Origin: Armatimonas rosea
GTDB taxonomy: Bacteria > Armatimonadota > Armatimonadia > Armatimonadales > Armatimonadaceae
Assembly: GCF_014202505.1 (NCBI RefSeq)
Contig: NZ_JACHGW010000004.1
Location: 248,001-312,000 of the forward strand
Direction: 5' to 3'
Length of the DNA stretch: 64,000 nucleotides
The notes under the pieces: generated by a model
The model's database searches: none
The model's input: only the letters and a program-made list of their open reading frames with translations
What the model was told of the DNA's origin: nothing
Part shown: one piece after another, positions 8,282-10,182 of the stretch
How the letters are laid out: every line of letters begins with the position of its first letter
Numbering within the stretch: position 1 is the stretch's first letter
Translations under genes and position numbers: made by a program

Positions 8282-9118
8282 GTGGCCCAACTTGCTCTAC
8301 GCCGAAAGGCGATGTTCTCCGCTGCACATGCCTACTGGCTCCCGGCGCTCTCCGACGAGGAAAACCGGGCACTCTTTGGGAAGTGGGCATCGAAGTGGGG
8401 GCACGGCCACAACTATGAGGTGGAGCTGACGGTAGCGGGGACGCTCGACGAGCGCTCGGGGATGGTGGTCAATATCACAGATGTCGATAAGGCGCTCAAG
8501 CGAGCCCTCCGGCCCCTGCGGGATAAGCACCTGACCTACGAGGTGCCCTACTTCGCGCAGAATCCCCCCACCACAGAGAATATTGTCCGGTATATCGCCA
8601 CGGCCTTTCGCACCGAGTTCACCGACCCCGCGGCGACTCTGACAAAACTTTTGGTCTGGGAGACCCCCACCCTTTCCGCTTTTATGGACTTTCAGGAGAG
8701 TGACACGATGATCGCCTTGACCCGCACCCTCGACTTTGCCGCCGCCCATCGGCTCCATGCGCCAGGCTTGAGCGACAGCGAGAATCTTGCGGTCTTTGGA
8801 AAGTGCAACAACCCCCATGGGCATGGGCACAACTACGGTGTCGAGGTGACGGTGATCGGGGAGCCCGACCCAAAGACCGGGATGATTGTCGATCTGATCG
8901 CCCTAGACAGAGTTCTTGAGACCGAGATCATGGCACGCTACGACCACAAGCACCTCAACGACGACACCGACGATTTTCGGGAGTCTAACCCAACCAGTGA
9001 GAACCTGACCCTCGCCATCTGGCGTCACCTAGAGAACAAGATCCCGGCTCCCGCGCGGCTCCATAAAGTGGTCGTGCGCGAGACCGACCGTAACTACTTC
9101 GAGTACACCGGAAACTAA
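8282..9118 (+). CDS. Tandem double-domain 6-pyruvoyl-tetrahydropterin synthase/QueD-like protein
   Basis: 278 aa from a GTG at 8282; the next ATG (8312) would cut into the first beta strand. Two full PTPS folds are fused. Domain 1 (about 1-135) keeps the zinc His pattern FSAAH and GHGHNY but has FGKWASKW where the catalytic Cys should be. Domain 2 (about 140-278) has [21 protein letters not shown] and a C-terminal Glu, so all zinc and catalytic residues are present, and it resembles eukaryotic-type PTPS. The enzyme acts on 7,8-dihydroneopterin triphosphate, the FolE2 product, and folE2 follows 65 nt downstream. Domain 1 is probably structural or regulatory. Confidence 0.9.
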
Positions 9119-9130
9119 ATTTTTTGGAGA

Positions 9131-9183
9131 GCCCGCACGGTTCGTCGGCAACAACCGGCAGGCTCCAGAGAGGAACCACTACC
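9131..9183 (+). promoter_or_regulatory. Candidate THF-II (folE-motif) riboswitch
   Basis: The leader of folE2 folds into one hairpin. GGTTC (9139-9143) pairs with GAACC (9173-9177), GTCGG (9144-9148) pairs with CCGGC (9155-9159), and the loop is CAACAA. An unpaired 13-nt segment AGGCTCCAGAGAG (9160-9172) sits on the 3' side only. The Shine-Dalgarno-like GAGAGGA (9168-9174) lies in this bulge and the closing stem, 9 nt before the ATG, so ligand-stabilised folding would hide it. Single-hairpin architecture, SD sequestration and position before a folE gene all match the THF-II class. I could not compare it base by base with the published consensus. Confidence 0.55.
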
Positions 9184-10182
9184 ATGTCAAAACCGACCCC
9201 TTCCTTGACGCCGTCGCCCCGTATGTTCTTTCACGACACCGACTCCCCCGCGCAGCCCCTCGTGGAGCGGCGTTATGATAGCGATTTTGTCCCGTCCGAA
9301 GAGTACCGCGCCTCGCTCCCGGACATGACCCTGACCCGCAATGCGATCCAAGGCGCCAATGTCCCTATCCAGCAGGTCGGCATCTCGGGCTTCCGCCTGC
9401 CCCTGCGCTTTGTCACCGAGAGCGGCGAGCACACCACGCTCGAGGCACGCGTCACCGGCTCCGTCTCCCTAGAGGCCAACCTCAAGGGCATCAACATGAG
9501 CCGCATCATGCGCACCTTCTACGAGCACAAAGACGCTGCCTTTACGCCGGACACGCTCACGGCGATCTTGCGCGACTACCAGGCGCAGGTCGGTGGGCTC
9601 CATGCGCGGCTGAAGGTCGGCTTCTCCTACCCCATGCTCCAGCAGAGCCTTCGCAGTGGGCTCGCCGGCTACCAGTACTACACGGTCAGCTACCAAGCCA
9701 GCCTCGATGCCCGTGGCACCCTGCGCCGCTTCATTAACTTTGATTTTGTGTACTCGTCGGCGTGCCCCTGCTCCGCCGAGCTGGCCGAGCACGCCCGCCT
9801 GACCCGCAATGTCTACGCCATCCCGCACAGCCAGCGCTCCAAGGCCCGCATCCAGCTTGAGCTCACCGAGGGGGCGACGCTGACGGTGGAGGAGATCCAG
9901 CGTCACTGCCTCGCCGCCCTCCAGACCGAGACCCAGGTCATGGTCAAGCGAGAGGACGAGCAGGCCTTTGCGGAGCTCAACGGCACCTACATCAAGTTTG
10001 TGGAAGATGCGGCACGGCTACTCTTTGAGCGCTTCGATAGCGACCCACGGGTGAAGGACTTTGAGATCGCCTGTGCGCACCTGGAGAGCCTTCATAGCCA
10101 CGATGCGGTCAGTGTGATCTGCAAGGGAATCGAGGGCGGGTACCAGGCGGACTTTGTGGATTTTGAAACACTGATCTGCTAG
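9184..10182 (+). CDS. folE2: GTP cyclohydrolase FolE2 (type IB)
   Basis: 332 aa. It converts GTP to 7,8-dihydroneopterin triphosphate, the first step to folate, queuosine or biopterin-type pterins. Family features include [14 protein letters not shown] near the N-terminus, [17 protein letters not shown], the metal-ligand segment [16 protein letters not shown] and the late [14 protein letters not shown]. FolE2 enzymes use varied metals, unlike zinc-dependent FolE. The ATG at 9184 is chosen because it follows the Shine-Dalgarno in the leader hairpin; an in-frame TTG at 9124 lies inside the leader. The upstream PTPS gene makes this a two-step pterin unit. Confidence 0.95.

Follow-up and report, generated by a model that had tools for sequence, protein, structure and literature searches.

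A preQ1-I-like pseudoknot as a candidate riboswitch in the folE2 leaders of Opitutae and of an Armatimonadota family

The leader of folE2 in Armatimonas rosea raises the question of which regulatory RNA lies before this gene, for which a THF-II riboswitch was proposed in a sequence-only reading of the window, i.e. the whole stretch of 64,000 nt analysed here, with all the features given below on its forward strand. The identity of the gene was confirmed, as the reading frame with its ATG at 9184 (9184-10182) matched NF010200 with 276 bits (cut-off 215), that is, folE2, encoding GTP cyclohydrolase type IB. A gene of two fused PTPS/QueD-family domains (8294-9118, start approximate; PF01242 in two stretches, E 1.3e-60; TIGR00039/TIGR03367) ends 65 nt before it, and the same gene was found before folE2 in the loci L002, L003 and L004. 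In these tandem genes (window 8294-9118, L002 577-1428, L003 2635-3531 and L004 2683-3552), the second domain keeps CxxxHGH and the first is without that cysteine, so the first may be a partner that is not catalytic or has another mode of action. Moreover, the whole folE2 leader folded better than shuffled sequences (z -2.37, 2/200).

To begin the comparison, folE2 relatives were gathered from the window's family, its phylum and 84,980 species genomes, and a common motif was found in 41 distinct folE2 leaders, 38 of them from Verrucomicrobiota (mostly Opitutae) and three from the window's own Armatimonadota family. In this motif, a hairpin whose loop, UUAUCGUC, hardly varies precedes AAAAACGA, which adjoins the start codon. 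Within stem P1, the loop was laid out as UU-A-UCGU-C(A/C)C, and the linker from the start of the P1 3′ strand to the A-run varied from 15 to 28 nt. The loop UCGU is complementary to the tail ACGA (P2), giving an H-type pseudoknot by sequence complementarity. Stem P1 appeared as GGUUG/CAACC, GAUUG/CAAUC, GGUG/CACC, GCGG/CCGC, ACGG/CCGU and CGG(UU)/(AA)CCG. In the 11 gap-free distinct copies, all P1 positions were paired (100%), both partners had changed at three of the four pairs, and the covariation of P1 was 0.377 compared to 0.130 in shuffles, none of 500 reaching the score. Over all 41 leaders, 136 of 164 combinations at the first four P1 pairs were standard pairs (shuffle maximum 128). The 4-bp complementarity of P2 was kept in nearly all family leaders, including L034, where loop and tail both read ACGU and the pairing was maintained through a base change on each side, and pairing was likewise kept in the GUCGG/CCGAC variant of the window and its congener G001; one pair was lost in L058 and in L062/L070. 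P2 was invariant in most members, its covariation being that of two or three variants only. Furthermore, UU followed the P1 5′ strand in 40 of the 41 tabulated leaders (UC in L034), as well as in the window and G001, and most copies had AA inserted before the P1 3′ strand, the commonest form being able to pair UU with AA (CGGUU/AACCG).

A covariance model (R1) built from 17 relatives' copies of the commonest form found 11 of 15 held-out forms, with E-values from 8e-13 to 3e-5. The pseudoknot family is absent from Rfam, as a search of 15 motif loci (~97 kb) gave no match; RF_site1 (E 5.5), the sole Rfam match at E<=10 in one leader searched (L044), was discarded as chance. The strict pattern GTTATCGT-N14-44-AAAAACGA matched in 17 of 291 Armatimonadota genomes, only three of them at folE2 (G002, G007 and G008), the remaining matches being near the level of the reversed control, and around two thirds of the 34 matches in Verrucomicrobiota looked real by their hairpin. 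In these scans, convincing copies were found only before folE2. The motif was absent from other Opitutae folE2 leaders, which mostly had no room or no PTPS upstream; one such leader, L056 (2900-3040), carries CGGTTACGAACCG without AAAAACGA and is possibly a decayed copy. In the open literature, nothing was found on a folE2-leader RNA in Opitutae, most subscription papers being outside the scope of this search. Overall, the comparison of leaders well supports a conserved structured RNA before folE2 in Opitutae and in the window's family, a candidate riboswitch of preQ1-I-like design present in two phyla.

The FolE2 proteins of the window's family were 56-67% identical to their counterparts in Opitutae and in L005 and L006, two further Armatimonadota genomes, and only ~23-31% identical to those of other Armatimonadota, which suggests that folE2 and its leader RNA moved horizontally between Verrucomicrobiota and the window's family. 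In both L005 (1411) and L006 (1411), the tandem PTPS-folE2 pair has overlapping genes, leaving no room for a leader RNA.

In the window, the counterpart of the family hairpin lies at 9130-9164. In the MFE fold, its P1 5′ strand is AGCCCGC-A-CGG (9130-9140), with AGCCYGCACGGTT conserved in G001 and ACGGTT common to the relatives, and its P1 3′ strand is CCGG-CAGGCU (9155-9164), also conserved in G001. The conserved UU follows the CGG of P1 at 9141-9142, and the proposed loop strand of P2, GUCGG (9144-9148), aligns with AUCGU of the relatives. Its exact complement, CCGAC (9193-9197), is identical in G001, lies in folE2 codons 4-5 and gives a 5-bp pseudoknot by complementarity. Directly before it, an A-run in codons 2-3 (9189-9192) is the counterpart of the poly-A before P2, the two together forming AAAACCGAC at 9189-9197, within codons 2-5 (TCA AAA CCG ACC, read as AAAA-CCGAC). 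The window sequence ACGGUU-C-GUCGG-CAAC-AACCG was thus aligned with ACGGUU-AUCGU-CAC-AACCG of the relatives, placing a cytosine (9152, in AC-AA-CCG against CAC-AA-CCG) where the specificity base of preQ1-I would be expected (PMC10622847), and the P2 pair at the poly-A end changed from U-A in the family to G-C in the window. The Shine-Dalgarno GAGAGGA (9168-9174), located 9 nt before the ATG, is identical in G001.

This diverged form (GUCGG/CCGAC) was found in two genomes only, and R1 recognised neither the window copy (2.6 bits, E 0.81 in 251 nt) nor that of G001, so membership of the window copy in the family had to be inferred from position, similarity and the A-run with its complement. Regarding position, the leader lies between PTPS and folE2; regarding similarity, its resemblance to the family hairpin was equalled by 8 of 3000 shuffles (13 of 3000 for G001). 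Some 5-mer complement of the loop occurred by itself in ~69% of shuffles, and only the adjacent A-run makes the match unusual: an A-run with the complement of any loop 5-mer was present in 31 of 20000 shuffled downstream sequences and in 10 of 3118 real window segments. Taken together, these features make the window copy, fairly probably, a diverged member of the family. It is rather unlikely that the switch has been lost from this leader, leaving no more than a stable hairpin ahead of an ordinary Shine-Dalgarno, with CCGAC matching by chance. Such a loss would fit the miss by the covariance model, the absence of AAAAACGA upstream of the window folE2 ATG together with a good Shine-Dalgarno, and the commonness of loop 5-mer matches; however, the window genome (G000) and G001 differ in the upstream flank and at two adjacent loop bases but not in the loop and tail strands, and the A-run with its complement is rare. 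In G001, conservation was also higher over the non-coding element than over the flank upstream of it. The identity of four folE2 start codons with G001 (11/162 comparable windows) gave weak support and was rejected as proof of selection on the RNA.

The genes around the motif were then considered with regard to the ligand. No QueC scored above the cut-off in any of the five genomes checked from the window's family or in the motif-carrying G564, and the window's family should therefore not make preQ1 de novo. QueC was present in four of the five Opitutae checked, preQ1 being a possible ligand in this group, and Tgt in all ten genomes checked. Type IA FolE was found in none of the ten, FolE2 being the only GTP cyclohydrolase I found, and FolB was not found in seven of them. 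PTPS-III enzymes are known to replace FolB, and PTPS may stand in for it in those seven genomes. An aromatic amino acid hydroxylase of the Biopterin_H family (PF00351) was present in G000 and G001. In most Opitutae loci that were long enough, the order was PTPS, motif, folE2 and SDR, and the best solved match of the SDR was sepiapterin reductase 2bd0 (E 1.8e-39, nearly full length), as would be expected for synthesis of the tetrahydrobiopterin type. Given the missing QueC in the window's family and the PTPS-folE2-sepiapterin-reductase-like operon of Opitutae, a pterin or folate is more likely to be the ligand than preQ1.

These same observations bear on a fourth type of preQ1-I sensing preQ1 or preQ0, with folE2 and the QueD-like gene controlled as queuosine-pathway genes. 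It would explain the type III layout, with UU after P1, a short loop, AC, a variable linker and four to five A before P2 (PMC10622847, PMC11625349), and it would agree with the PTPS genes scoring as QueD and with the distribution of Tgt and of QueC in Opitutae. We nevertheless consider it unlikely, as it is at odds with the missing QueC in the window's family and G564, with the sepiapterin-reductase-like SDR at the end of the Opitutae operon and with the restriction of convincing strict-pattern copies to folE2. Moreover, RF00522 had no match in the window, the 15 motif loci or the leader searched, while the Bacillus subtilis control did match.

With moderate confidence, the folE2 leader is interpreted as a cis-regulatory H-type pseudoknot that would act as a feedback OFF switch, probably on a pterin or folate, the window copy being a diverged member. 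This interpretation starts from the covariation of P1, the strict conservation of loop and tail, and the position before folE2 only, at the start codon. As in type III preQ1-I, the knot would be stabilised by a small ligand bound between P1 and P2, with a pterin or folate end product as the most probable candidate, and would close over the start region; the ribosome could then not start on folE2 and translation would be lowered. In the window lineage, P2 would be GUCGG/CCGAC with its tail strand in the coding sequence, and both the Shine-Dalgarno and the AUG would lie inside the linker between P1 and the P2 tail and be looped out by knot closure. More tentatively, these leaders could represent a new riboswitch class whose preQ1-I-like pocket would sense a tetrahydropterin (tetrahydrobiopterin-type) or folate and shut down folE2, the knot having moved in the window lineage with one strand now protein-coding; we regard this as possible but doubtful. 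Since pterins and preQ1 have the 2-amino-4-oxo-pyrimidine face in common, one and the same cytosine could recognise either of them. On the other hand, the hairpin and the A-rich tract might be an operator or translational enhancer within a protein-binding or attenuation element, and not a ligand sensor. The small size would suit such an element, as would the A-rich tract adjoining the AUG in leaders without a clear Shine-Dalgarno; it would need neither the strict loop-tail complementarity nor the preQ1-I-like arrangement of unpaired residues, and appears quite improbable.

A search of the open literature revealed no riboswitch for tetrahydrobiopterin or a pterin precursor, and RNA control of folE2 seems not to have been described there. 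Should a preQ1-I-like fold indeed have been adapted to pterins in Verrucomicrobiota and Armatimonadota, a small pocket would have changed its ligand through modest edits, and the folate/pterin pathway would have one more RNA solution for its sensing.

As for the 39-nt hairpin (9139-9177) on which the THF-II proposal was based, its sequence and pairs are as claimed, with an outer helix GGTTC (9139-9143)/GAACC (9173-9177), an inner helix GTCGG (9144-9148)/CCGGC (9155-9159) containing one G-U, the loop CAACAA, and a 13-nt 3′ bulge, AGGCTCCAGAGAG (9160-9172), which holds most of the Shine-Dalgarno. However, it is not the preferred fold: when forced, it reached -15.8 kcal/mol, compared to -20.3 kcal/mol for the incompatible hairpin 9129-9165 (4.5 kcal/mol difference). 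In G001, the outer helix was GGTTT/AAACC (GGUUU/AAACC in the RNA), one C-G to U-A change accompanied by an indel, which is a single event between two sequences, G001 being the only available congener. Since the outer helix was kept there, the hairpin may be an alternative fold or state of the leader that would disrupt P1, with the Shine-Dalgarno placed in the bulge, and it would be a candidate for the open state of the switch.

The folE2 leader of the window is not a THF-II riboswitch. In that class, the long and conserved junction is the 5′ one, J12, with only 1-2 nt in J21 (PMC9881143), while the junction in hairpin 9139-9177 has 0 nt on the 5′ side and 13 nt on the 3′ side. A THF-II assignment with P1 GGUUC/GAACC and P2 GUCGG/CCGGC could draw on the hairpin, on its outer helix retained in G001 and on the GTP cyclohydrolase context, but it has next to no probability, as the Rfam folE/THF-II covariance-model check gave no match in the leader at E<=10, the junction asymmetry is on the opposite side (PMC9881143), the competing fold is more stable and all 86 published representatives are from Rhizobiales or metagenomes (PMC6800512). 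RF02977 had no match in the genome, with control genomes likewise silent, and the search of the whole window at the gathering score of Rfam gave none either; mir-9191 and Sphinx_1 matched the window leader at E 8-9 and were discarded as chance. What stands of the proposal is a conserved candidate regulatory RNA in a folE2 leader outside Alphaproteobacteria, with a preQ1-I-like pseudoknot in place of the class THF-II.

Compared with known systems, the family RNA resembles THF-II (folE motif, RF02977) in lying upstream of a gene for GTP cyclohydrolase I, close to the ribosome binding site, and possibly in folate/pterin feedback. THF-II differs in having no pseudoknot, in its conserved residues in the 5′ junction, and in its occurrence before type IA folE in Rhizobiales, and it had no model match here. 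The residues concerned are G16-C46, U17-A45, A20, A21, C22, G25-C43 and U44, with A20, A21 and C22 forming the conserved bulge J12 between U17 and G25 (PMC9881143). The ligand class is possibly shared with THF-I, which is larger, has another architecture and had no Rfam match in the window.

Type III preQ1-I, described in a crystal structure paper (PMC10622847) and a review (PMC11625349), combines a UU next to the P1 5′ strand with a short loop; ahead of the P1 3′ strand stands AC, whose C is the specificity base, and after a linker that differs in length, four to five A immediately precede P2. Like the E. coli yhhQ leader (PMC10622847), the family RNA is an H-type pseudoknot near the start codon with a short P1, UU after its 5′ strand, a short loop, C (after A or C) before the P1 3′ strand, a variable linker and poly-A directly before P2. 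The A-rich segment precedes the P2 tail in a knot supported by complementarity, the pairing in the window being inferred. In contrast, P2 is CGU/ACG (or GUCGG/CCGAC) in the family, whereas preQ1-I pairs the Shine-Dalgarno AAGG; moreover, the family RNA precedes folE2, occurs in other phyla, has AA inserted before the P1 3′ strand in most copies and has no Rfam PreQ1 match, and its ligand is likely another. Its gene context is mixed, with an adjacent QueD-like PTPS, QueC missing in the window's family and a sepiapterin-reductase-type SDR in Opitutae. In the copies without AA, both the UU and the C before the P1 3′ strand are unpaired; in the AA form, the window included, UU/AA could pair, which would use the U that contacts the ligand in preQ1-I and is the main objection to an identical pocket. 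The shortest form of the motif, found in L034 (2948-2985) and L058 (2942-2979), has a 9-nt loop (UCACGUCAC or UUACGUCAC), a 6-bp GC stem and 16 nt from the P1 3′ strand to the A-run, and these two copies are the best candidates for structure determination. In particular, the nine positions of the L058 loop, UUACGUCAC, correspond to residues 6-14 of the E. coli RNA, pair 10-29 being G-C instead of C-G.
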